Assembly: GCA_017613055.1 (NCBI GenBank)
Contig: JAGAES010000139.1
Coordinates: forward strand, 1-10,065
Source of the DNA: Lachnospiraceae bacterium
GTDB lineage: Bacteria > Bacillota_A > Clostridia > Lachnospirales > Lachnospiraceae
Direction of reading: 5' to 3'
DNA length: 10,065 bases
Shown: in pieces, positions 1 through 10,065 of the stretch
How positions within the stretch are numbered: position 1 is the stretch's first letter
Layout of the letters: each line of letters begins with the position of its first letter
Position numbers and translations under genes: made by a program
Notes under the pieces: model-generated
What the model was told of the DNA's origin: nothing
What the model saw: only the letters and a program-made list of their open reading frames with translations
The model's database searches: none

Positions 1-1061
1 ATTGCGAGCAGACCGGTATCGTGGGCCGTATGGGCGCCGTGTTCTCACTGATTGAGGATAACCACATCCATAACATCAACAACATGCAGCAGCTCGGCGG
101 AGCGGAAATCTCCGGCATCAAGCTCCATGCGGCAATCGACGTTGTAATCCGCCGTAACCACATCCATCACAGTACGATGGGTATCTGGTGTGACTGGGAA
201 GCGCAGGGCACGCGGATTTCGCAGAACCTTCTGCATGACAACCAGCGTCCGGACTTCTGCACATGGGCAGAAGGCGGCATGGGCAGCCAGGATATCTTCG
301 TTGAGGTCGGACATGGCCCGACTCTTATTGACAACAACATCATGCTTTCGAAGGCTTCTTTGATGATTGCGACCGAAAGCGTTGCAATGGTGCATAACCT
401 TGTGCTCGGCGCATTTTTGAACGTCGGAAGCGGCACGGGACTCCGTTACACGCCTTATCACATCCGCCACAGGACCGAGGTCGCGGGCTTCATGACAATC
501 CTGCACGGCGACGACCGGTTCTACAATAATATCTTCGTTCAGAAGTATCCGATTATCGTTGACAAGGAGACCGGAGAGAAGAAGGAGAAGGATTCGCTTG
601 TCGGAACTTGGCAGTTTGACGAGTATCCGACCTACGAGGAGTGGATTCCGAACTTCGAACTCGACAATCCGAAGCCGAGCATGATGAAGCTCGCCAAATG
701 GCACGAGAACGAGCATCTGCCGGTTTGGTCCGCGGGTAATGCTTATCTCGGCGGTGCGAAGAAGTGGAAGAAAGAGAAGAACTGCTTCGTGGACGCGAAA
801 GCGCCGGTGAAGGTAGAGTTAAAAGAGAAGAACGGTCACTACACGCTTGATACCAATGTGTACGAGATTATCGGGGACTACACGAACACGATTATCGACA
901 GCGACACGCTCGGCAAGGCTTTCCAGCCTGAGCAGCGGTTTGAGAATCCGGACGGCTCCGCGATTACATTTGACCGGGATTACTTCGGAGACAAGCGCGG
1001 CCTGACGGCTGTTCCGGGACCTTTCGCCTCGGCGGCAGCGCTTAAGAAGAAAGTCTGGTAG
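1..1061 (+). CDS. GH120-like right-handed beta-helix glycoside hydrolase, C-terminal part (5' end outside window)
   Basis: The reading frame is open from base 3 with no stop before TAG at 1059-1061, so this is the last roughly 350 residues of a longer protein. GTG at 21 and ATG at 30 lie inside the frame and are not credible starts. Repeated beta-helix rungs with Asn/His ladders are visible (EDNHIHNIN, RRNHIHH, SQNLLHDN, DNNIML). The segment GIWCDWEAQGTR followed by FVEVGHGP resembles the catalytic region of GH120 beta-xylosidases of the XylC type. In that comparison the nucleophile would be the Asp at bases 192-194 and the acid/base the Glu at 303-305. They are 37 residues apart, while I recall about 23 in GH120, so an insertion of about 14 residues (around QRPDFCTWAEGGMG) is inferred. 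The likely role is hydrolysis of xylo-oligosaccharides; with no signal peptide region visible, location is unknown. Another beta-helix hydrolase family is possible. It is convergent with the nitrogen operon and unrelated in function. Confidence 0.62.
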   Translation, partial: CEQTGIVGRMGAVFSLIEDNHIHNINNMQQLGGAEISGIKLHAAIDVVIRRNHIHHSTMGIWCDWEAQGTRISQNLLHDNQRPDFCTWAEGGMGSQDIFVEVGHGPTLIDNNIMLSKASLMIATESVAMVHNLVLGAFLNVGSGTGLRYTPYHIRHRTEVAGFMTILHGDDRFYNNIFVQKYPIIVDKETGEKKEKDSLVGTWQFDEYPTYEEWIPNFELDNPKPSMMKLAKWHENEHLPVWSAGNAYLGGAKKWKKEKNCFVDAKAPVKVELKEKNGHYTLDTNVYEIIGDYTNTIIDSDTLGKAFQPEQRFENPDGSAITFDRDYFGDKRGLTAVPGPFASAAALKKKVW

Positions 1062-1065
1062 ACAA

Positions 1066-1650
1066 TTAATGGTACGTGCGGAGAATTTCCTCCGCAACCG
1101 AACGACGTGAGATACAACGGTCCATCGCCTGCTTTTCTATGTAGCGATGGGCCGTTTGTTCGTCCATCGAAAGAGAGGAGATGAGCTGCCATTTGGCGCG
1201 GTTTACAAGACGGATTTCCTCCATCTTCTCCTCAACGGAAAGCGTCTTCTTCTCAAGCTTCCGAAGCCGTTCGCGCGCAGACTGCATCCATTCAAGCGCC
1301 AGTATCAGAAGCGGCTGCGAAGTAGGCTTAGAGAGGGTGTAAACGCCGTGCTCGACAACTTTGTCACGAATATCGACATGATGCTCCGCGGGAACCAAAA
1401 GAAGCACAACTGTGCCGTTTAACTGAGCGGCATCGATGGCAAAGCGTGTGCCGACCTCGTCGCTTAACGGTGCATTGATGATTACGTAGTCGAAATGCTG
1501 CTCGCTGATAATCCGTCTCGCGGCGCTGATGTTCGGCACGCTCAGCACGGGAGAGTAGCGCGCATCCGGGAGCAGCTGCGAAAGCGCCGTGTTGACGGGC
1601 GACTTCGCGGAAACGACAAGAACGCTGTAAACTCGTTCCCTAAGGCTCAT
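1066..1650 (-). CDS. ANTAR-domain RNA-binding regulator with degenerate receiver domain
   Basis: This 194-residue protein has the layout of ANTAR response regulators: receiver-like domain (about 7-120), coiled-coil linker (about 122-150) and C-terminal three-helix ANTAR domain (about 140-192, with RAKWQLISSL, AMDRCISRRSVAEEIL). ANTAR domains bind paired RNA hairpins and prevent transcription termination. The receiver looks inactive: the phospho-acceptor position in DYVIINAPLSDEVG is Asn59, the acidic pair after strand 1 is replaced by Ser14-Ala15, and only Lys108 (LSKP) remains. I chose ATG at 1650 because AAAGGAG ends 5 nt upstream; the GTG at 1656 overlaps that site. It lies 65 nt behind glnA as the last gene of the operon. 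ANTAR proteins next to glnA are known in clostridia (NitR-like), so control of nitrogen genes is inferred. The targets may be the leader hairpins at 8087-8035 and 9018-9058. The 3' end is 4 bp from the convergent hydrolase gene. Confidence 0.88.
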   Translation of the reverse strand: MSLRERVYSVLVVSAKSPVNTALSQLLPDARYSPVLSVPNISAARRIISEQHFDYVIINAPLSDEVGTRFAIDAAQLNGTVVLLLVPAEHHVDIRDKVVEHGVYTLSKPTSQPLLILALEWMQSARERLRKLEKKTLSVEEKMEEIRLVNRAKWQLISSLSMDEQTAHRYIEKQAMDRCISRRSVAEEILRTYH

Positions 1651-1715
1651 ACGCACTCCTTTCTCCCGGGCAGGGGTAGTTTTACTACAATGGTAGAATA
1701 GTTATCCGACTAAGC
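1651..1715 (-). other. glnA-ANTAR intergenic spacer with competing small hairpins
   Basis: This 65-nt spacer holds the ribosome site for the ANTAR gene (AAAGGAG, about 1656-1662). It also contains two short inverted repeats that share one arm: GTAGT-TTT-ACTAC (1676-1688) and CTAC-AATG-GTAG (1685-1696), plus-strand reading. No sigma-A promoter and no strong terminator is evident, so the ANTAR gene is probably co-transcribed with glnA. The hairpins are short and may be chance. Confidence 0.35.
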
Positions 1716-2927
1716 TTAACGGTCACAATAGATCTCTAAAATCTCGGCCGGAACATATTCGCGGATAAAGTCGCTTTCGGCGGCAATCCGGCTTGCTTCG
1801 GTGAGGTTCTCGGGAAGCTTTTCGTAAGCGGCAAGTTCCGACGCCTTCGCCGTATAGAGGTTGATGTCGGCAGCCGGAGGCATCTCGAGCTTGTTGCGGT
1901 TTCCGTAAAGCCCCGCGTAAATCAAAAGGGTAAATGCCAGATACGGGTTCGCGGACGGATCCGGCGAACGAAGCTCCGCGCGGCGGTACTCGCCGAGGGC
2001 GGCAGGAATCCGGATTAACTGGGAGCGGTTTTCGTTGGACCAGCTGACATAGCCGGGCGCCTTGCTGCGGCCGAGTCTCCGGTAGGATTCTTCGGTCGGG
2101 TTCAGAAATGCCGTCATCGGAAGCATATGTTTCAATATTCCGGCAAGCATCGGACATACTTCGGCTTCGCCGGATTTGTTCTTTAAGGAAATGTTGATGT
2201 GGAAGCCGTTGCCGGGCTCCTGCTCAAGAGGCTTCGGCGAGAAATCCGCATACAGTCCGTTCTTCACCGCAACCGTCTTCACGACGCGTCGGAACATCAT
2301 CACATTGTCCGCAGCCGTAACCGGGTCGGAGTAGCGGATATCAATCTCATTCTGTCCCGGACCGACCTCGTGGTGCGAGCTCTCCGGCTGGATTCCCATC
2401 TGCTCAAGCGTCAGGCAGATCTCACGGCGCACGTTCTCGCCGCGGTCATCGGGCGCAACGTCCATGTAACCCGCGTTGTCGTAAGGAATCTTCGTCGGAG
2501 CGCCGTTCTCGTCAAGCTTGAAAAGGTAGAATTCCTGCTCGGCGCCGAAGCTGTACTCGTAGCCCGCTTCCTTTGCGTCCGCGACGGCTTTCTTCAAAAG
2601 CGTACGCGTGTCGCAGGAGAACGGTGTGCCGTCCGGCCAGGTAATCGAAGTGAACATCTGCATGACGCGGCCGTGCTCCGGTCTCCACGGGAGCGGCGTC
2701 AGCGTCTCCGGTTCGGGATGCAGGAACAGATCGCTCCGCGACTCGTCGCCGAAGCCCGCAATCGCGGATGCGTCGATGGCAATTCCCTGCGTAAAAGCTC
2801 TTCGCAATTCATCCGGCATGATCGAAATGTTCTTCTGTCTGCCGAATACATCGCAAAAAGCGAGGCGGATGAATTTGACATCCTCCTCGCGCATGTATTG
2901 GATAACCTCGTCCATGGTGTAATTCAT
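1716..2927 (-). CDS. glnA: Type I-family glutamine synthetase, short form
   Basis: Glutamine synthetase makes glutamine from glutamate, ammonium and ATP as a cytoplasmic dodecamer. The family motifs are all recognisable: Asp52 in IDASAIAGF, FGAEQEFYLF (127-136), SSHHEVGPGQNEID (183-196), GNGFHINISL (239-248), NENRSQLIRIP (298-308) and AELRSPDPSANPYLAF (317-332). At 403 residues it is about 40 shorter than Bacillus GlnA. From memory of that sequence, about 15 residues are missing after HINISL, and the C-terminal tail (the usual HPWERxxY end) is absent. In the active-site flap, the segment RRLGRSKAP stands where Bacillus has KRLVPGYEAP, so Lys289 falls at the conserved Glu (Glu304 in Bacillus). 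This may be normal for a clostridial subfamily. AAGGAGG at 2940-2934 with 6 nt spacing supports the ATG at 2927. It lies 67 nt after the GXGXG subunit in the same operon. Glutamine synthetase activity is likely; a glutamine-synthetase-like paralogue with another amine substrate is the alternative. Confidence 0.93.
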   Translation of the reverse strand: MNYTMDEVIQYMREEDVKFIRLAFCDVFGRQKNISIMPDELRRAFTQGIAIDASAIAGFGDESRSDLFLHPEPETLTPLPWRPEHGRVMQMFTSITWPDGTPFSCDTRTLLKKAVADAKEAGYEYSFGAEQEFYLFKLDENGAPTKIPYDNAGYMDVAPDDRGENVRREICLTLEQMGIQPESSHHEVGPGQNEIDIRYSDPVTAADNVMMFRRVVKTVAVKNGLYADFSPKPLEQEPGNGFHINISLKNKSGEAEVCPMLAGILKHMLPMTAFLNPTEESYRRLGRSKAPGYVSWSNENRSQLIRIPAALGEYRRAELRSPDPSANPYLAFTLLIYAGLYGNRNKLEMPPAADINLYTAKASELAAYEKLPENLTEASRIAAESDFIREYVPAEILEIYCDR

Positions 2928-2994
2928 TAGGGGCCTCCTTCTTCCGTCAAAGCCCAGGGCCTTGACTTATGCGGACCGCACGCGGCGGTCTTTT
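2928..2994 (-). promoter_or_regulatory. Two stem-loops in the leader between the GXGXG subunit and glnA
   Basis: The 67-nt gap contains two inverted repeats. The first in mRNA order is at 2990-2974, GACCGC-CGCGT-GCGGTC, a perfect 6 bp stem. The second is at 2966-2946, about 9 bp including one G-U, with GTCAA/TTGAC at its base and a 3-nt loop. It ends just upstream of the glnA ribosome site at 2940-2934. In the operon direction neither is followed by a U-tract, so they are not intrinsic terminators for glt mRNA; processing, stability or translational control is inferred. On the plus strand the first stem is followed by TTTTT (2991-2995), but no plus-strand gene would use it. Confidence 0.5.
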
Positions 2995-3714
2995 TCAGTT
3001 TGCTACATACATCTGCCGGTAAGGGTTCCGGCTGTCCGGCGTCACAACCGTGAAGGGAGCGGAGAGCACTTCGTCAACGGAAAGCCCGAAGATCTTACAG
3101 TACTCTTCAAGATACGGTTTCAGTTCCGAAAGGTCGTCCGTTTCGGCGGGCTTTGCGGTAACCTGCGCGGGAAATGTGATGTCCTTACAGTCCGAACGTA
3201 AGAACATCTTGCCTCCGTGCATTCCGGTGCACGGGAAGTTTCCGACAATCCTGCCGTCCCCGTCAAGATTCAGAACGACGATGATGCCGCCTGCCTGGTA
3301 TTCACCGAGGAAGCTGCCCGCATGACCGCCGATAATCATCACCGGGAACTTGTCGTGATAGGCCTTCATATGGATGCCTGCACGGTATCCGGCGTCGCCT
3401 TTCACGTAAATCCGTCCGCCGCGCATCGCGTAGCCTGCCGCGTCACCGATGTTGCCGTGAATCGCAATCAGGCCTTCGTTCATCGTGTCGCCGACCGCGT
3501 CCTGCGCGTTGCCCTCAACCGTTACCGTAGAGCCGTTCAGATAAGCGCCGAGCGCGTTTCCGGGAATTCCCTGAAGCGTAATGGTACGGCCGGACATGCC
3601 GGAGGCGATGAACCGCTGACCGAGGCATCCGTCCACCACGCACTCGCCGGACGTCGCGCGGATGGCCTCATTCAATGCTTTATGGTCTAAACCCTGTGCA
3701 TGTATCATTGTCAT
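2995..3714 (-). CDS. Glutamate synthase GXGXG-domain subunit (GltB C-terminal domain homologue)
   Basis: This 239-residue protein carries the right-handed beta-helix GXGXG domain that forms the C-terminal part of the large subunit of classical glutamate synthase. Regularly spaced glycine rungs run from about 50 to 165 (GNALGAYLNGSTVTVEGNAQ, GNIGDAAGYAMRGGRIYVKG, GGHAGSFLGEYQAGG, FPCTGMHGGKMFLR). The domain is structural and packs against the amidotransferase and FMN domains. Here it is a stand-alone gene, as in archaeal-type split enzymes. The tail after about residue 190 (LKPYLEEYCKIFGLSVDEVL) is helical and probably a subunit contact. GGAGGTG at 3731-3725, 10 nt upstream, supports the ATG at 3714 over the second ATG two codons in. 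It starts 2 nt after the stop of the FAD oxidoreductase gene. Formylmethanofuran dehydrogenase subunit C shares the fold but does not fit the context. Confidence 0.93.
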   Translation of the reverse strand: MTMIHAQGLDHKALNEAIRATSGECVVDGCLGQRFIASGMSGRTITLQGIPGNALGAYLNGSTVTVEGNAQDAVGDTMNEGLIAIHGNIGDAAGYAMRGGRIYVKGDAGYRAGIHMKAYHDKFPVMIIGGHAGSFLGEYQAGGIIVVLNLDGDGRIVGNFPCTGMHGGKMFLRSDCKDITFPAQVTAKPAETDDLSELKPYLEEYCKIFGLSVDEVLSAPFTVVTPDSRNPYRQMYVAN

Positions 3715-3716
3715 AG

Positions 3717-4949
3717 TTATACCACACCTCCAAACTTTTTTCTACGATTTTCCGCGGAAAATGCGATGGTTGTCGCTCCGGTCTTCAGCAAATCATAGTT
3801 GACTTCCGAAACCGGCGTCTGTTCGCGGATCATTGAAGTGTATATTCCGGCCCGTTCGTTACAGCCGATCAGGAGGAATCCCCTGAGACGGTCGTCTTTG
3901 ACGAAGAGCCGCTTAATCGAGGAATCGGTCTTCTCCTCGTAACATTCGCCTTCATAGGCGCCTGCCGTCATGGCGTGAAGTCCGAAGAATCCGATGGAGT
4001 TCATCGGCATGCCGCGGTTGAAGAGTTCCTCACTGCCTGCCATGTTGACGCCTGCGGCATGTCCCTGCATATAGGCGTTCGGGAAGATCGCAAGCACGCG
4101 GTTTGCACCGATGCTAAGGTCATATCCTTCCGCGCAGTCGCCTGCGGCATAGATTCCGGGGACGGAAGTCTCCAGCTTCTCATTGACTACGATACCGCGG
4201 TTTACGGTACCGCCGATTGCTTTTACAAGACCGGTGTTCGCACGGACACCGACCGCAAGAACAAGAACATCAAACGGAACCTCCGCGCCGCTCTTCATGT
4301 GAGCAAGGCCGGCTTCAAACTTCGCGACGCTGTCGCCGAGCAGGAATTTGATGCCGTGCTCTTCGAGGCGATGCTGCATCAATGCGGCGCATTCATTATC
4401 AAGAATACTCGAGAGCACGCGGTCGGCAAGGTCGCAGACCGTAATCTCTTTGACCCGGCCGTAGATTCCTTCGGCGCATTTGAGGCCTATAAGGCCGGCG
4501 CCGACAATCAACACGCGGGCATCCTTGTCTAATTCTTTTTCAAGTGCCAGGGCATCGTCGAGCGTCAGGAACGCGTACTTTCCTGTCACGGAATCGAGGC
4601 CGTCCATCGGCGGAACGAACGGAGAGGAGCCGGCGGCGACACAAACCTTGTCGTAAGGAAGCGATGTGCCGTCCGAAAGAGTAACCGTGGCATTTGCCGG
4701 ATTGATTTCCGTTGCGGATACGCCGTACAGAACCTTTGCGCCGTTCTTCTCATAGAAATCCGGAGAGCGGTACGCAATCTTTGTAAGGTCGGTCTTCTTT
4801 TCGAGGTAATAGGAGATGAGCGGGCGGCAGTAAACCTCGTGCTTCTCCGCGGATACGACGGTGATTTCCCCTTCGGTATCTACGCTCCGGATGCCTTCGA
4901 TGCAGCCGGCGGCCGCCACTCCGTTTCCGATAATCACATAGCGTTTCAT
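3717..4949 (-). CDS. FAD-dependent NAD(P)H oxidoreductase of the glutamate synthase operon
   Basis: This 410-residue pyridine-nucleotide-disulfide-type oxidoreductase has an FAD-binding Rossmann motif at the N-terminus (GNGVAAAG, 8-15), a second dinucleotide motif (GAGLIG, 150-155) for NAD(P)H, and the FAD motif GIYAAGDCAEG (265-275). The region after KHEVYCRPLISYYL resembles NirB or rubredoxin-reductase-like enzymes rather than thioredoxin reductase, and no CxxC redox pair is present. The sequence is unlike the classical GltD small subunit because it lacks the fused N-terminal iron-sulfur domain. The adjacent ferredoxin gene could supply that function separately, and the two genes overlap by 4 nt (ATGA). 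I infer that it takes electrons from NAD(P)H and, with the ferredoxin, feeds the FMN subunit. Cofactor preference for NADH or NADPH cannot be read here. GAGGTG 7 nt upstream supports the start. Confidence 0.85.
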   Translation of the reverse strand: MKRYVIIGNGVAAAGCIEGIRSVDTEGEITVVSAEKHEVYCRPLISYYLEKKTDLTKIAYRSPDFYEKNGAKVLYGVSATEINPANATVTLSDGTSLPYDKVCVAAGSSPFVPPMDGLDSVTGKYAFLTLDDALALEKELDKDARVLIVGAGLIGLKCAEGIYGRVKEITVCDLADRVLSSILDNECAALMQHRLEEHGIKFLLGDSVAKFEAGLAHMKSGAEVPFDVLVLAVGVRANTGLVKAIGGTVNRGIVVNEKLETSVPGIYAAGDCAEGYDLSIGANRVLAIFPNAYMQGHAAGVNMAGSEELFNRGMPMNSIGFFGLHAMTAGAYEGECYEEKTDSSIKRLFVKDDRLRGFLLIGCNERAGIYTSMIREQTPVSEVNYDLLKTGATTIAFSAENRRKKFGGVV

Positions 4950-5392
4950 TGGCTTTCACCTCGCTCTTCATAGACTATGGCGTGGTTCGGGCAGCCCTTT
5001 ACGCAGGCCGGTTCGCCGCACGAATTGTTGAGGCACAGCTCGCATTTCTGCATCGCGCCGTCTTCGCCGGGCGTCAGTGCGCCGTAAGGGCATACAAGAA
5101 TGCAGGTGTAACAGGAGACGCAGCGTTCGCGGTGAATCCGGATGACGCCGTCTTCGCGGTAGAGCGCGCCTGCGATACAGCTCTTGACGCAGAGCGGATC
5201 GGTGCAGTGCCGGCAGGAAACCGCAAATGTGACGCGGTTCGAGTTCTCGCCTTCCACATGGATGCGCGGGAAGATCGTCTTGCCGGCGAGGGCGGAAGCC
5301 ATATCGAACCCGCCGGAGTTGGCAAATGCGCAGTTATATTCGCACAGGTGACAGCCGAGACACCATTCTTCGTTGACATAAACTCGTTTCAT
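4946..5392 (-). CDS. Four-cluster 4Fe-4S ferredoxin (HycB/DmsB-like), electron carrier for glutamate synthase
   Basis: This 148-residue protein contains four cysteine groups suited to four [4Fe-4S] clusters: Cys11-14-17-21, Cys60-63-68-72, Cys91-94-97-101 and Cys117-120-130-134. Cys125 is an extra one. The spacing of the second and fourth groups resembles electron-transfer subunits of molybdopterin oxidoreductases and hydrogenases (DmsB/HycB family). No signal peptide or membrane segment is visible, so it should be cytoplasmic. It lies between the FMN subunit (4 nt gap) and the FAD oxidoreductase (4 nt overlap), which suggests that it relays electrons between them. The ribosome site AGGAGA (5406-5401) lies inside the end of the upstream gene with 8 nt spacing, consistent with translational coupling. 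Confidence 0.9.
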   Translation of the reverse strand: MKRVYVNEEWCLGCHLCEYNCAFANSGGFDMASALAGKTIFPRIHVEGENSNRVTFAVSCRHCTDPLCVKSCIAGALYREDGVIRIHRERCVSCYTCILVCPYGALTPGEDGAMQKCELCLNNSCGEPACVKGCPNHAIVYEERGESQ

Positions 5393-5396
5393 AGGC

Positions 5397-6902
5397 TTAT
5401 TCTCCTGCGTGGGAGATTCCGAGAATCTCCAGTTCTTTCTCGTTGAGGCCGACGCCGCGAAGCATCAGGCGGTTGCCGCGAAGGGCTTCGACGGAGTTGA
5501 TTCCCATGCCGCCCATCAGTTCCTTGATTTCGTGCTTCCATGCGGTCATCAGGTTGATGAGCCGTTCGCTTCCGAGGTCGGGGTTGAGACGTTTTACCAG
5601 GTCGGGCCGCTGTGTGGCGATGCCCCAGTTGCATTTGCCGCTCTGGCAGGTACGGCACAGATGACAGCCGAGTGCAAGGAGGGCAGCGGTTGCGATGTAG
5701 CAGGCGTCCGCGCCGAGAGCGATTGCCTTAACAACATCGGAGGCGCTTCGGATCGAACCGCCGACGACAAGCGAAACATCGTTCCGGATACCTTCATCAC
5801 GAAGCCGCTGGTCAACGGCCGCGAGCGCGAGTTCAATCGGGATGCCGACGTTATCGCGGATTCTTGTCGGAGCCGCTCCGGTGCCGCCGCGGAAACCGTC
5901 GATGGCGATGATGTCCGCGCCGCTTCTGGCGATTCCGCTTGCGATTGCTGCGATGTTATGAACCGCGGCTACCTTAACGATAACGGGTTTCCGGTAACCG
6001 GTTGCTTCCTTTAAGGAGAAGACAAGCTGCCTTAGATCTTCGATTGAGTAAATGTCATGGTGCGGAGCCGGGGAAATGGCATCCGAACCTTCCGGAATCA
6101 TACGGGTACGGGAGACGTCACCGACAATCTTCGCCCCCGGCAGATGTCCGCCGATGCCGGGCTTCGCGCCCTGGCCCATCTTAATTTCGATGGCGGCGCC
6201 GGCTTCGAGATACTGCTCATGCACGCCGAAACGTCCGCTTGCCACCTGCACGATTGTGTTCGGGCCGTAGCAGTAGAAGTCTTCGTGCAGTCCGCCCTCA
6301 CCGGTATTATAAAGAATGCCGAGTTCCGTTGCCGCGCGCGCGAGCGACGCGTGCGCGTTATAACTAATGGAACCGTAGCTCATCGCGGAGAACATGACCG
6401 GCATGGACAAGGTCACATGCGGCGGAAGTTCGCAGATCAGGTTGCCGTTCCCGTCACGCTTCATCGTCTTCGGGCGTTTGCCGAGCGTCACCTGCGTCTC
6501 CATCGGTTCGCGGAGCGGATCAATCGGCGGGTTCGTTACCTGCGAAGCGTTAATCAGGATGCGGTCCCAGTAAACCGGCAGCGGCTTCGGGTTACCCATC
6601 GAGGAGAGCAGCACGCCGCCGCTTCCCGCCTGTTTGTAAATCTCACGGATTGTATCGTTCTGCCAGTTGGCATTTTCCCGAAGCTGACAGTCGCTTTTCA
6701 CAATCTTCAGTGCGCGTGTCGGACAGAGCGAGACACAGCGCTGGCAGTTGACGCATTTGCTTTCGTCACTGATCATCTTGCCGGTGTCGGGATTCAGTTT
6801 ATGTACTTCATTGGCACACTGCCGTTCGCATACGCGGCAGGTGATGCAGCGGTCCGGGTTCCGCACAACTTCATATTCCGGATAGATAAAATCGATTCCC
6901 AT
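5397..6902 (-). CDS. gltB: Glutamate synthase FMN-domain subunit with N-terminal ferredoxin domain (archaeal type)
   Basis: This 501-residue protein is the catalytic core that converts 2-oxoglutarate plus ammonia, tunnelled from the amidotransferase, to glutamate on FMN. The N-terminal segment holds two 4Fe-4S motifs (Cys19-22-25-29 and Cys50-53-56-60). The remainder is the TIM-barrel FMN domain with the family signatures KMGQGAKPGIGGHLPG (241-256), SPAPHHDIYSIEDL (277-290) and IDGFRGGTGAAP (334-345). The 3Fe-4S motif is Cys413-x5-Cys419-x4-Cys424, the spacing of GltB. Length and layout match archaeal-type glutamate synthases, where the large subunit is split into separate proteins. The start ATG overlaps the previous stop by one base (TGATG), and AAGGAGC lies 7 nt upstream. 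The second 4Fe-4S-type pair of clusters is the expected entry point for electrons from the neighbouring ferredoxin. Confidence 0.96.
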   Translation of the reverse strand: MGIDFIYPEYEVVRNPDRCITCRVCERQCANEVHKLNPDTGKMISDESKCVNCQRCVSLCPTRALKIVKSDCQLRENANWQNDTIREIYKQAGSGGVLLSSMGNPKPLPVYWDRILINASQVTNPPIDPLREPMETQVTLGKRPKTMKRDGNGNLICELPPHVTLSMPVMFSAMSYGSISYNAHASLARAATELGILYNTGEGGLHEDFYCYGPNTIVQVASGRFGVHEQYLEAGAAIEIKMGQGAKPGIGGHLPGAKIVGDVSRTRMIPEGSDAISPAPHHDIYSIEDLRQLVFSLKEATGYRKPVIVKVAAVHNIAAIASGIARSGADIIAIDGFRGGTGAAPTRIRDNVGIPIELALAAVDQRLRDEGIRNDVSLVVGGSIRSASDVVKAIALGADACYIATAALLALGCHLCRTCQSGKCNWGIATQRPDLVKRLNPDLGSERLINLMTAWKHEIKELMGGMGINSVEALRGNRLMLRGVGLNEKELEILGISHAGE

Positions 6903-7993
6903 CAGAATGCTCCTTCCTTCACGCGGACAATCACGGGTTCTCCGCCTGCCGGAGCCCAGATGTTCTGTACATCGGGTTCCATGACGCGAATCGCGGCTTC
7001 CTCGCTCGCGATATAAACCTTGTCGTCTTTCTCACCGACGACCATCGACCTTAGCTTCAGCCGGTCATTCAGGGCCATCAGGCCGCCGTTGAAACCAAGC
7101 ACAATCGAGAACGGTCCGGTAACCAGCAGACTCGGGAAGACGGTTCTGAGGAACGAAAGACGTTTCTTCGTTTCCTCGTCTTTCTTTTCGATGGTGCTCC
7201 AGAACGGAGCGGCGATCACATTTGCCGCCTCGGTAAGGGTAAGTCCCTGTACACGGAGCAGATAATCGAGAATGTAGGTGATGACCTCGGTATCGGTCTG
7301 GAGGTTGCATTTGTAACCGAACATCTCGATGAACCGGCGGTTGGCGTCATACGAGGAAATCTCGCCGTTGTGAACGACCGAATAATCAAGGAGCGTGAAC
7401 GGATGCGCGCCGCCCCACCAGCCGGGGGTGTTGGTCGGATAACGTCCGTGTGCGGTCCAGCAGTAGCCTTCGTACTCATCGAGGCGGTAGAAGCGGCCGA
7501 CGTCCTCGGGGAAACCTACGGCTTTGAAGGTTCCCATGTTCTTACCGCTTGAGAAGACGTAAGCGCCTTTCATGTCCGTGTTGATCTTCATAACGGTGCG
7601 TGCCACGAATTCTTTCTCATCGAGCTGCAGATCCGCGAGAACCGATTTGAGCGGGGTTACGAAATAACGGTATATAATAGGCTCATCCGTAATCTCCGGA
7701 ATCTTTCTGGTCGGAATCAGCTCGCCCTTGACGACTTCAAAGTGCTCTTTCAAAAATGCCTCGCATGCCTTTCTGGTATCGCGGCAATCGAAGAACATGT
7801 GAAACGCATAGTAGTCTTTGTAAGCGGGGTAGATGCCGTAGCCGGCGAAACCGCCGCCGAGGCCGTTTGAGCGGTCGTGCATCGGCTTCATCGACTCGAT
7901 GATCGACTGTCCGCTCATTTTCTTTCCTTCCTTGGAAATCACTGCTGCGATGGCGCAACCGGAGGGGATGCGCACCTGACCTTCCTGTTTCAT
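6902..7993 (-). CDS. Glutamate synthase class II glutamine amidotransferase subunit
   Basis: This 363-residue protein is the Ntn-type glutaminase half of the split glutamate synthase: it hydrolyses glutamine and passes ammonia to the FMN subunit. The catalytic residue should be Cys13 (IPSGCAIAAV). It must become N-terminal in Ntn enzymes, so removal of a 12-residue leader (MKQEGQVRIPSG) is inferred. Other class II signatures are present: HGRYPTN (182-188), VHNGEISSY (207-215) and QTDTEVI (232-238). It is first in the operon. The ATG at 7993 has AAAGGAAG upstream with 6 nt spacing. A separate amidotransferase followed by FMN and GXGXG genes is the archaeal-type arrangement. PurF or GlmS are excluded by the missing phosphoribosyl or isomerase domains and by context. 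Confidence 0.94.
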   Translation of the reverse strand: MKQEGQVRIPSGCAIAAVISKEGKKMSGQSIIESMKPMHDRSNGLGGGFAGYGIYPAYKDYYAFHMFFDCRDTRKACEAFLKEHFEVVKGELIPTRKIPEITDEPIIYRYFVTPLKSVLADLQLDEKEFVARTVMKINTDMKGAYVFSSGKNMGTFKAVGFPEDVGRFYRLDEYEGYCWTAHGRYPTNTPGWWGGAHPFTLLDYSVVHNGEISSYDANRRFIEMFGYKCNLQTDTEVITYILDYLLRVQGLTLTEAANVIAAPFWSTIEKKDEETKKRLSFLRTVFPSLLVTGPFSIVLGFNGGLMALNDRLKLRSMVVGEKDDKVYIASEEAAIRVMEPDVQNIWAPAGGEPVIVRVKEGAF

Positions 7994-8034
7994 GGATGTC
8001 TTCCTTTCTGCATCATGGCTTTTAGAGAAAAGGA

Positions 8035-8087
8035 AAAGGCGCTCATCGATACACAGACACGCGGCCTGTCCATCAATGAACGCCTTT
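8035..8087 (-). promoter_or_regulatory. Leader hairpin (possible attenuator) of the glt operon
   Basis: In the glt mRNA leader, AAAGGCGTTCATTGAT (8087-8072) pairs with ATCGATGAGCGCCTTT (8050-8035) as a continuous 16 bp stem with two G-U pairs. The apical part (8071-8051) can form a further 4-5 bp stem, GACA/TGTC, around a G/C-rich loop. It is followed by TTTTCCTTTTCTCT, a pyrimidine tract broken by two C, so as a terminator it would be leaky. It begins 14 nt after the -10 box and ends 41 nt before the start codon. The same first bases open the hairpin in front of glnN, which points to a shared regulator, most simply the ANTAR protein encoded at the end of this operon. No canonical twin hexaloop (A at 1, G at 4) ANTAR motif could be drawn. 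Confidence 0.65.
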
Positions 8088-8101
8088 GCTCATTTGCCCG
8101 A

Positions 8102-8130
8102 ATTATACGCCCGTATATTTCATATGTCAA
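8102..8130 (-). promoter_or_regulatory. Consensus sigma-A promoter of the glt operon
   Basis: Read on the minus strand, TTGACA (8130-8125) and TATAAT (8107-8102) are both perfect consensus with the ideal 17 bp spacing. A run of seven A (8140-8134) just upstream of the -35 box could act as an UP element. Transcription should start near 8095, giving a leader of about 100 nt. A promoter this strong fits genes whose output is set after initiation, by attenuation or activity control. Confidence 0.9.
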
Positions 8131-8144
8131 GTGTTTTTTTCGCC

Positions 8145-8154
8145 GCTTTAAAGC
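8145..8154. promoter_or_regulatory. 10-bp palindrome between the divergent promoters
   Basis: GCTTTAAAGC is a perfect palindrome lying 15 bp upstream of the glt -35 box and 26 bp upstream of the thiT -35 box. Its position would suit an operator or activator site. A palindrome this short is expected by chance about once in 1 kb, so support is weak. Confidence 0.25.
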
Positions 8155-8180
8155 ACCGAAGAAAACAACGCGACTCCGCA

Positions 8181-8209
8181 TTGACTTTCGGGGCCCGTTG
8201 TGATAAATT
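8181..8209 (+). promoter_or_regulatory. Probable sigma-A promoter of thiT
   Basis: TTGACT (8181-8186, five of six to consensus) lies 17 bp before TAAATT (8204-8209, four of six), within an AT-rich run. The predicted start near 8216 leaves a leader of only about 27 nt, too short for a TPP riboswitch. AGAGGA at 8231-8236 is the ribosome site, 6 nt before ATG 8243. It is divergent from the glt promoter; the 51-bp stretch 8130-8180 separates the two promoters. Confidence 0.6.
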
Positions 8210-8242
8210 GAATTAAAAAATCATACGGAAAGAGGACCTTCT

Positions 8243-8941
8243 ATGTTTCCTTTTCTTTTACAGTTTATAAGCCGTTCGGAAGACGGTTCCTATGTTCTTG
8301 AAAAAGCGGGCTTTGTTGTGTTCGGTATTGCGATTTTCCTGCTCATCTGTGTTTCTGCGGCAATTATGACGCGTAAGGATAAAAACGATTCCCGCCGCGC
8401 GGTCCGTCTGACGGTTTCCGCGATTTCGATTGCGCTTGCATTCATCACTTCGTATATTCAGCTCTTTAAACTTCCGTGGGGCGGATCCGTAACGCTCTTC
8501 AGCATGTTCTTCGTATGCTTTGTCGGATACCTTTACGGACCGTCGGCCGGAATCACGGCAGCATTTGCCTACGGCATTTTACAGTTCCTGCAGTCGGGCG
8601 GAAGCTACATCCTGTCGATTCCGCAGGTACTGTTCGATTATATCCTGGCATTTGCCGCACTCGGCATTGCAGGCTTCTTCTATAAAGCCAAGAACGGCCT
8701 GATTATCGGTTTCATCGCGGGCTGCATTGCGCGAGGCGTGTTCGCGTCGATCGCGGGTTATCTGTACTGGATGGATTACATGCCCGAGAGCTTTCCGAAG
8801 AAGCTCGCGTTCCTGTATCCGCTTGCGTATAATTACAGTTATATACTGATTGAAATGGCATTTACACTGGTTATTCTTTCGATTCCTTCCGTACGGAAAG
8901 CAATCAGGCGGATCGCGTTCGAAGCGACGAGAGAGGATTGA
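8243..8941 (+). CDS. thiT: ThiT-like ECF transporter S-component (thiamine or related substrate)
   Basis: This 232-residue integral membrane protein matches the thiamine S-component ThiT of energy-coupling factor transporters, which captures substrate and works with shared EcfA/A'/T subunits encoded elsewhere. Family features are LPWGGSVTLFSM (77-88), IPQVLFDYILAFAALGIAG (126-144) and the YPLAYNYSY segment (192-200). Residues equivalent to thiamine contacts of Lactococcus ThiT appear to be Asp132 (for Glu84), Trp176, Tyr192 and Asn197. The His that stacks on thiamine (His125) falls on Ala168 in ARGVFASIAGYLYW. An extra N-terminal membrane segment (about 22-42) and a basic linker precede the usual six helices, so the protein is longer than typical ThiT. 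No TPP riboswitch is seen upstream. It lies between two nitrogen operons with its own promoter. The S-component family is clear; thiamine as substrate is likely but not certain. Confidence 0.82.
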   Translation: MFPFLLQFISRSEDGSYVLEKAGFVVFGIAIFLLICVSAAIMTRKDKNDSRRAVRLTVSAISIALAFITSYIQLFKLPWGGSVTLFSMFFVCFVGYLYGPSAGITAAFAYGILQFLQSGGSYILSIPQVLFDYILAFAALGIAGFFYKAKNGLIIGFIAGCIARGVFASIAGYLYWMDYMPESFPKKLAFLYPLAYNYSYILIEMAFTLVILSIPSVRKAIRRIAFEATRED

Positions 8942-8973
8942 AAACGCCCGGAAAAATTTTTTGAAATTGGGGG

Positions 8974-9002
8974 TTGACAATCCGAAAAAGCGGGTTTATA
9001 AT
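8974..9002 (+). promoter_or_regulatory. Consensus sigma-A promoter of glnN
   Basis: TTGACA (8974-8979) and TATAAT (8997-9002) are perfect consensus boxes 17 bp apart, with an AT-rich stretch (8951-8967) upstream that may serve as an UP element. The -10 box continues TCGG, as in the glt promoter at 8102. Transcription should start near 9009, leaving a leader of about 80 nt that contains the hairpin at 9018-9058. Confidence 0.9.
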
Positions 9003-9017
9003 TCGGCACATAAAGGC

Positions 9018-9058
9018 AAAGGCGTCTTTGAGTGGCAACACTCAGAGGCGCTTTTTTT
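9018..9058 (+). terminator. Leader terminator/attenuator upstream of glnN
   Basis: AAAGGCGTCTTTGAGTG (9018-9034) pairs with 9039-9055 in a 17 bp stem with three G-U pairs, closed by a GCAA tetraloop (GNRA type). Seven T (9052-9058) follow or overlap the base. This has the form of an intrinsic terminator, but it sits between the glnN promoter and its start codon, so regulated attenuation is the natural reading. It would also stop read-through from thiT, which has no obvious terminator of its own. The bases AAAGGC occur twice in tandem (9012-9017 and 9018-9023), giving a possible alternative pairing register. Confidence 0.82.
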
Positions 9059-9088
9059 ATTGCAAAACAAGATGAGAGGAGAACTCAC

Positions 9089-10065
9089 ATGAAAACAGTA
9101 TCGGATTATTTCGGAACGAATGTATTTGATGACAGAGTGATGCGCGCCAATCTTTCGGCAGATGTGTACCGCTCGCTTCGCAAGACGATTGACGAGGGCA
9201 AGGAACTCGACATCAGCGTTGCCAACGCGGTTGCGGAAGCGATGAAGAATTGGGCAGTCGAGAAAGGAGCGACACATTTTACGCATTGGTTCCAGCCGCT
9301 TACCGGAATCACCGCCGAGAAGCACGACAGCTTCATCAGCCCGGCTCCGGACGGAAGCGTAATCATGGAATTCTCCGGCAAGGAACTGATCAAGGGTGAG
9401 CCGGACGCGTCCTCGTTCCCGAGCGGCGGTCTCCGCGCCACATTCGAAGCGAGAGGATATACCGCATGGGATCCTACTTCTTACGCATTCATTAAAGGAA
9501 AGACGCTCTGCATTCCGACCGCGTTCTGTTCCTACGGCGGACCGGCACTCGATAAGAAGACGCCTCTGCTCCGTTCGATGGAAGTGCTCAGCAAGCAGGC
9601 GCTCAGAATTCTGAAACTCTTCGGTAACAAGACCGCGAAACGTGTTGTTTCCTCGGTCGGACCGGAGCAGGAATACTTCCTTGTTACGAAAGAAATGTTT
9701 GATAAACGTCCTGACCTCTGCTTCACCGGCCGTACGTTGTTCGGTGCGAAGCCCCCGAAGGGACAGGAGATGGACGATCATTACTTCGGTGTTATCAAGC
9801 CGAGAGTAGCGGCCTTTATGGAAGATTTGAACGATGAGCTTTGGAAGCTCGGAATTCTCGCCAAGACCGAGCACAACGAAGTAGCTCCCGCACAGCATGA
9901 GCTGGCGCCGATTTACTCGACGACGAACATCGCGACCGATCACAACCAGCTGACGATGGAAATCATGCAGAAGGTTGCCGCCAAGCACGGTCTTGTATGT
10001 CTGCTTCATGAGAAGCCGTTCGCAGGCGTGAACGGTTCCGGTAAGCACAACAACTGGTCCATCGC
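9089..10065 (+). CDS. glnN: Type III glutamine synthetase, N-terminal part (3' end outside window)
   Basis: The frame runs from ATG 9089 to the window end without a stop (325 full codons plus two bases); type III enzymes are usually about 700 residues. Recognisable family signatures are WFQPLTG (67-73), [20 protein letters not shown] (110-129), [18 protein letters not shown] (146-163), [11 protein letters not shown] (189-199), [15 protein letters not shown] (262-276) and [19 protein letters not shown] (307-325). These cover the glutamate, ATP and metal ligand regions. It makes glutamine from glutamate and ammonium in the cytoplasm. AGAGGAG at 9075-9081, 7 nt upstream, supports the start. It is a second glutamine synthetase, unrelated in detail to the type I enzyme at 2927-1716. 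Its promoter and leader closely resemble those of the glt operon, so co-regulation is likely. A long antisense frame over this gene (10048-8996) is a shadow. Confidence 0.96.

Follow-up and report, generated by a model that had tools for sequence, protein, structure and literature searches.

The window analysed here is the whole stretch of 10,065 nucleotides. It corresponds to positions 1-10,065, forward strand, of contig JAGAES010000139.1 of Lachnospiraceae bacterium GCA_017613055.1. Its main content is a run of minus-strand genes for glutamate synthase, a glutamine synthetase and an ANTAR protein, and the beginning of a plus-strand glutamine synthetase gene. The genes are given below with the domain matches on which their annotation rests.

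9089..10063, plus strand: glnN, type III glutamine synthetase (GSIII), leaving the window at its edge; GSIII_N, 271.7 bits.
6902..7993, minus strand: glutamate synthase glutaminase domain, gene 1 of the glt operon; GATase_2.
5397..6902, minus strand: glutamate synthase FMN domain; Glu_synthase, 456 bits.
4946..5392, minus strand: iron-sulphur protein of the glt operon; Fer4 families.
3717..4949, minus strand: pyridine nucleotide-disulphide oxidoreductase of the glt operon; Pyr_redox_2.
2995..3714, minus strand: glutamate synthase GXGXG domain; GXGXG.
1716..2927, minus strand: type I like glutamine synthetase (GSI), 403 aa; Gln-synt_C and Gln-synt_N, below the NCBIfam GlnA cut-off.
1066..1656, minus strand: ANTAR protein with a pseudo-receiver, proposed antiterminator, final gene of the run; ANTAR, 54.7 bits.

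Between 2995 and 7993 the glutamate synthase domains are carried by separate genes, followed by the short glutamine synthetase of 403 aa. A gene for a thiamine transporter (8243-8941; Thia_YuaJ, 92 bits) sits between the two nitrogen units. The 3′ part of a large gene occupies 3-1061; its translation resembles, by eye, a right-handed beta-helix repeat protein. No Rfam covariance model matched the window up to E 1 over its whole length: neither a TPP riboswitch nor any other Rfam family was found, the thiamine transporter region included. A riboswitch or other catalogued leader was rejected as an explanation for the leaders on this ground. The gltD riboswitch candidate was also set aside: as described in PMC8632094, it belongs to other orders, has a hairpin over the ribosome site and differs in structure.

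Each nitrogen unit is preceded by a promoter that is followed at once by a long stem. The initial annotation had pointed to these two modules as matched (TTGACA-17-TATAAT, then TCGG, then AAAGGCGT at 15 or 14 nt), with a long stem starting at AAAGGCGT. Both observations hold.

8974..9002, plus strand: glnN promoter, TTGACA (8974-8979), 17 nt, TATAAT (8997-9002), TCGG next; 12/12.
9018..9058, plus strand: glnN intrinsic terminator, 17 bp, GCAA loop, T tract; fold, listed by the terminator scan.
8102..8130, minus strand: glt promoter, TTGACA (8130-8125), 17 nt, TATAAT (8107-8102), TCGG next; 12/12.
8028..8087, minus strand: glt intrinsic terminator, 17 + 6 bp, T-rich tail; fold, tail read by eye.

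The two promoters are the only 12/12 sigma70 promoters found in the window by the promoter scan. Promoter-like sites of all kinds number seven in the window, which is no excess over shuffled sequences (mean 5.3). In the glnN leader, AAAGGCGT begins at 9018, 15 nt past the -10 box; in the glt leader it begins at 8087, 14 nt past the -10 box. The long stem starts exactly there in both: 17 bp in glnN (-26.2 kcal/mol, z -7.6); 17 bp, one mismatch and 6 bp more in glt (-36.1 kcal/mol, z -5.6). The glt terminator is absent from the list of the terminator scan, its T-rich tail having been identified by eye. Since both stems end T-rich, each strong promoter runs directly into a stop signal.

A second, shorter hairpin, unnoticed in the initial annotation, is found in each leader. 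AAAGGCGT is its six-base loop (hexaloop) plus the closing base.

9012..9029, plus strand: glnN antiterminator hairpin AAAGGC(AAAGGC)GTCTTT, hexaloop 9018-9023 with A1 and G4; fold of 9008-9029, -3.7 kcal/mol, covariation in relatives.
8075..8094, minus strand: glt antiterminator hairpin AATGAGC(AAAGGC)GTTCATT, hexaloop 8087-8082; fold of 8100-8072, -6.3 kcal/mol, covariation in relatives.

A1 and G4 (A at loop position 1, G at loop position 4) are present in both window leaders. The first base of the glnN hairpin lies about 3 nt downstream of the predicted transcription start. The hexaloop hairpin overlaps the intrinsic terminator; because the two have the loop and the 3′ arm in common, they are mutually exclusive. 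The bases at the 5′ side of the long stem had been noted as conserved. They are, but they form the antiterminator hexaloop and its closing pair and not only the base of the terminator. Stepwise folding of a growing transcript puts the hexaloop hairpin before the terminator. In glnN, transcripts of 22-37 nt fold best as the hexaloop hairpin, which the terminator displaces from 40 nt on. In glt, the hexaloop hairpin is preferred at most lengths between 22 and 55 nt (transcripts of 40-43 nt fold otherwise), and the terminator displaces it from 58 nt on. In the antiterminated folds of both leaders, a short apical hairpin is able to stack straight onto the hexaloop hairpin.

Taken alone, the short hairpins are modest by shuffling: z -2.5 for glnN, equalled by 4 of 200 shuffles; z -1.45 for glt, unexceptional, equalled by 17 of 200. 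The weight therefore rests on recurrence and covariation in relatives. AAAGGCG has five matches in the window against 2.3 expected, and 10 of 200 shuffles reach five. Simple repetition of AAAGGCG was rejected as an explanation, its enrichment by itself being only mild, and the evidence is its fixed place within both modules.

The first survey covered the window and 80 loci having a close homolog of the ANTAR protein. Hexaloop hairpins (stem of at least 5) whose loop starts a terminator were counted; locus counts keep near-identical regions unless marked distinct. The hexaloop hairpins overlapping a terminator number 211; 123 have A1/G4 and the remaining 15 classes have 2-10 each. Another test was blind to the hairpin. 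It used 166 gene starts (glt, GSIII, GSI): 87 with a promoter of at least 10/12, 77 without and 2 too short. A hexaloop hairpin (stem of at least 5) is found in 75 of the 87 leaders so chosen, and 74 of these have A1/G4 with C-G closing; the loop lies 14 or 15 nt past the -10 box in 67. In base-shuffled leaders, any such hairpin is found in 459 of 4350 and A1/G4 in 34 of 4350. Among the 12 misses, some retain the loop on a stem that is shorter or has lost its closing pair; others resemble wrong promoters. Chance hairpins were considered and rejected: with a stem of at least 6, a six-base loop is found in 69 of the 87 leaders versus 1-5 for loops of 3, 4, 5, 7 and 9. Loops of 8 and 10 (56 and 25 of the 87 leaders) are read as the hexaloop hairpin with inner pairs opened.

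Covariation was assessed in three alignments. First alignment: 58 rows chosen by hand among 111 hairpin-selected elements. Second (56 distinct rows) and third (84 distinct rows): rows chosen by promoter and loop letters, pairing not used. The second leaves out the 4 of 87 rows that are without loop letters. In it, 94.9% of antiterminator cells are paired against 40-54% in slid controls (0 of 500 shuffles). Most of its covariation comes from two stem classes, ATGAGC/GTTCAT (glt) and AAAGGC/GTCTTT (GSIII). As the first and second alignments are dominated by these two classes, the wider third was made. Its sample comprises 240 distinct gene-start contexts, 132 with a promoter of at least 10 and 108 without. 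Loop letters occur 11-19 nt downstream of the promoter in 116 of the 132, and 111 of these 116 have a stem of at least 4; a G right after the loop was required of each row. The 84 distinct rows include 36 arm pairs, among them AAGAAC/GTTCTT, ACAGC/GCTGT, ACAAC/GTTGT, GTAGAC/GTCTAT and CGGC/GCCG. Cells are paired in 94.0%, with two-sided changes in 120 cells. None of 500 shuffles attains its percentage, number of cells, number of pair types or score, but pairs with a two-sided change are no more numerous than in shuffles (220/500). The terminator also covaries: in the first alignment, whose rows are hairpin-selected, this includes covariation of loop position 3 with its 3′ arm. In 62 of 84 rows, G-U forms the second antiterminator stem pair (columns 7 and 16 of the third alignment), perhaps so that the hairpin stays weak without protein.

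The covariance comparison proposed in the initial annotation thus gives covarying stems (second and third alignments) and an element that recurs upstream of nitrogen genes in relatives. By comparison of sequences, the earlier suggestion of control by RNA structure is supported. A different kind of control would place the signal in DNA: the palindrome past the -10 box could be bound as an operator by a repressor or activator, or the terminators could merely damp a constitutive promoter. The distance from the -10 box to the loop is nearly fixed (of 77 elements linked to a promoter, 66 have 14 or 15 nt), as such a reading would have it. It is nevertheless the least probable of those weighed here, and hardly credible: the arms vary with compensating changes, loop position 3 covaries with the terminator 3′ arm, promoterless units recur behind a first terminator, and A1, A2 and G4 of the loop are fixed in anchored rows, although partly by selection.

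A named kind of RNA exists for such leaders, where the initial annotation knew of no named family: the ANTAR target RNA. The published target consists of two tandem hexaloop hairpins (P1, P2) with A1/G4 loops overlapping a terminator, as described in PMC3369931 and PMC3369936. In eut, P1 is reported to be needed in vivo, and its deletion lowers induction (PMC3369931), which speaks against control through a single hexaloop. The window leaders depart from this kind by having one hexaloop. The transcription start was predicted as the seventh base past the -10 box. The hexaloop hairpin begins 0-6 nt into the predicted RNA in 108 of 111 leaders and slightly before it in 3 (median 2). With the hairpin at the predicted 5′ end, there is no room for P1, and no hexaloop hairpin lies between the -10 box and the element in any of the 111. 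When the 60 nt upstream are searched whatever the promoter, a hexaloop hairpin is found in 2 of 111. In L015 it falls inside the -35 box; L192 is a genuine dual leader to which the wrong promoter had been assigned. Looking upstream, 110 of 111 leaders thus appear to have a single hexaloop, and the arrangement of two in tandem (P1 + P2, short linker) is not found in them. A P1 candidate with a stem of at least 3 within 60 nt upstream is found in 10 of 123 elements; 3 are parts of an earlier unit and 5 are in or near a promoter. L011 and L013 have upstream hexaloop candidates outside earlier units and promoters.

Five more distant glnN leaders were read by the same rule. L136 (from the genome of L192) and L141 have both loops, so the test is able to see a P1; L142, L138 and L191 do not. 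L136:1430-1530 and L141:1430-1530 are canonical dual-hexaloop leaders before glnN, and those distant genomes carry another ANTAR gene beside glnN. Dual and single architectures are both present within one order. A two-hexaloop scan of all loci gives L136 and L146 as the two leader cases of note; its remaining matches, mostly chance pairs inside genes or a second loop in the terminator arm, were rejected.

A second site might still be required by an ANTAR protein acting on these leaders: a serial unit, a second RNA, or the apical hairpin replacing P1. A second hexaloop unit lies downstream in 32 of 111 leaders, often with its own terminator; the apical hairpin stacks directly on the hexaloop hairpin in the antiterminated folds; and EutV in the crystal can contact hexaloops of two RNA molecules, as PMC8934654 reports. 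This requirement is judged unlikely, given that 79 of 111 leaders are without a second downstream unit by the same test (the window glt leader likewise, by reading) and that the apical loops differ in sequence and length. Two hexaloop-terminator units in series behind one promoter are seen in L010, L012, L020, L074 and L078 (glnN and gdhA leaders).

The element is found before genes of nitrogen metabolism and of glutamine use. The 123 A1/G4 elements are distributed as follows: 60 before GSIII, 36 before glt, 3 before GSI, 1 before or in a GXGXG gene and 23 others. Single further targets (NCBIfam names), each in one or few genomes, are guaA, purA, purC, pyrG, nadE, glmS, amt, gdhA, purF, gatC, asnB and gltB; the gatC units are farther from their promoters. 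Glutamine is used by GuaA, PyrG, NadE (depending on its type), GlmS, PurF, AsnB and GatCAB. The motif model was also run on the sister genome G001 (its ANTAR protein, on L001, has 94% identity) and gives three sites there, at glnN, glt and glmS. Short versions of the element are present before glmS in the sister genome (L109, near 1534) and before nadE in another genome (L108, near 1505). Targets without a clear nitrogen tie are a MoaB-like protein (L134) and a family-less protein (L018). The element also precedes, near 1101 in L058 and L065, a gene for an 862-aa protein with weak PEP-synthase similarity and no clear nitrogen tie. The regulon-wide leader proposed earlier is supported by this distribution, the element standing before glt, GSIII, GSI, amt and gdhA as well as several genes for glutamine amidotransferases.

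The candidate regulator is encoded in the window itself, where an ANTAR gene lies beside a glutamine synthetase gene in a GS/GOGAT cluster. The C-terminal ANTAR domain scores 54.7 bits against a cut-off of 27.3; the receiver match (28 bits) is below its cut-off of 30.2. Matches of the C-terminal part in the PDB up to E 10 are Rv1626, AmiR and 4akk (the nitrate regulator NasR) only. The place of the phospho-acceptor holds Asn61, and Asn is found there in 114 of 122 aligned homologs. The domain is thus a pseudo-receiver, as in AmiR, which likewise has one without phospho-acceptor (PMC8934654). His170 is invariant (122 of 122 homologs). It may correspond to EutV Tyr164, which stacks on G4; this assignment is made by spacing from a conserved Met. 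Of 124 ANTAR hits (near-identical loci kept), 114 have a GSI gene immediately before the ANTAR gene, with a median gap of 38 nt. At several ANTAR-GSI loci no leader precedes GSI, which speaks against the attenuator reading.

Co-occurrence was counted in two samples of related genomes, the motif search scoring just 40 or 24 candidates per genome. Among 147 genomes of one order, the motif (1e-5 or better) is present in 27, the ANTAR protein in 49 and both in 19 (p 1.4e-5). Among 245 genomes of the class, the numbers are 30, 66 and 22 (p 1.6e-8). ANTAR-positive genomes without a motif match at 1e-5 are 30 of 49 (order) and 44 of 66 (class), and motif-positive genomes without a close ANTAR homolog are 8 in each sample; these unmatched genomes in both directions weaken a strict link between motif and ANTAR protein. 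The ANTAR protein, named as the candidate regulator in the initial annotation, is nonetheless supported in that role by genome comparison: genomes with the motif carry it more often than expected, with exceptions. The 8 exceptions per sample would suit recognition of the hairpin by another RNA-binding protein or a small ligand. Such a recogniser is considered very unlikely: the loop and its placement fit the published ANTAR target, no Rfam family matched, and an ANTAR domain protein was found in all nine motif-positive genomes without a close homolog that were checked (hand-picked among 30).

ANTAR control of nitrogen genes is already known. The review PMC6316151 reports that in C. saccharobutylicum the ANTAR protein NitR induces GS/GOGAT genes on nitrogen limitation, acting by antitermination. 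In C. thermocellum, PMC4676874 describes an ANTAR gene, Clo1313_2030, in a GS/GOGAT cluster, whose expression changes match those of the cluster 2030-2036. The window resembles both in gene content, with an ANTAR protein tied to GS/GOGAT genes. The leaders share with EutV-eut, NasR-nasF and AmiR-amiE (PMC3369931, PMC3369936) the A1/G4 hexaloop, the hairpin excluding a terminator, the ANTAR protein and the nitrogen genes. They differ from these three (P1 + P2) in that a P2-like hairpin stands alone, at the predicted mRNA 5′ end, in 110 of 111 leaders. AmiR is gated by the amide sensor AmiC; for the window protein, the adjacent glutamine synthetase as sensor is a guess from the 114 of 124 neighbourhoods.

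One hexaloop is also what the EutV-RNA structure of 2022 gives as the minimal ANTAR site; the paper, in the passages concerned, calls for bioinformatics on single sites (PMC8934654). For antitermination, where transcription sets a time limit, that paper retains P1 as a recruiter; it allows single sites where no moving polymerase imposes such a limit (PMC8934654). The present leaders differ in that they would be single sites under that limit. The two surveys of ANTAR targets considered here demand two tandem hexaloops (PMC3369931, PMC8164766), the actinobacterial survey of PMC8164766 having retained dual stem loops; single-hexaloop leaders would thus be missed by design. No report of single-hexaloop leader regulons was found in a literature search mostly without subscription papers, which is weak evidence of absence. 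On sequence grounds, the leaders appear to behave like ANTAR attenuators but fall outside the dual-hexaloop definition, and they are proposed as a newly described single-hexaloop variant.

The reading held with good, though not full, confidence is the following. Both leaders are transcription attenuators of the ANTAR type, with one hexaloop hairpin right at the 5′ end of the transcript, off by default and opened at nitrogen shortage by the pseudo-receiver ANTAR protein of the operon. Polymerase would start constitutively at both promoters. The hexaloop hairpin would fold first; the terminator would then displace it, reusing the loop and the 3′ arm, and by default transcription would yield only an abortive product of some 50-70 nt. 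Under a shortage of nitrogen (probably of glutamine), the product of the last gene of the glt run, the ANTAR protein, would bind the hexaloop and hold the hairpin, and polymerase would continue into glt and glnN. If the run is co-transcribed, readthrough would also raise the synthesis of the ANTAR protein itself. By analogy with AmiC-AmiR, the signal might be passed on by contact with the adjacent glutamine synthetase.

A wider proposal is speculative and, in its full extent, doubtful. Clostridia would have a large regulon of 5′-terminal single-hexaloop ANTAR antiterminators without a recruiting P1. It would comprise ammonia assimilation and, genome by genome, GuaA, PyrG, NadE, GlmS, PurF, AsnB and GatC. 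Its pseudo-receiver ANTAR protein would be gated by contact with the glutamine synthetase encoded beside it, which would parallel GS-TnrA control at the level of RNA.

If the leaders are controlled by the ANTAR protein, the need of antitermination for a recruiting first hairpin would not be a general rule, and the question left open by the EutV paper of 2022 could be tested on leaders of about 50-75 nt. Nitrogen control in many Clostridia would then sit at elongation, with ammonia assimilation and glutamine-consuming enzymes in one regulon.
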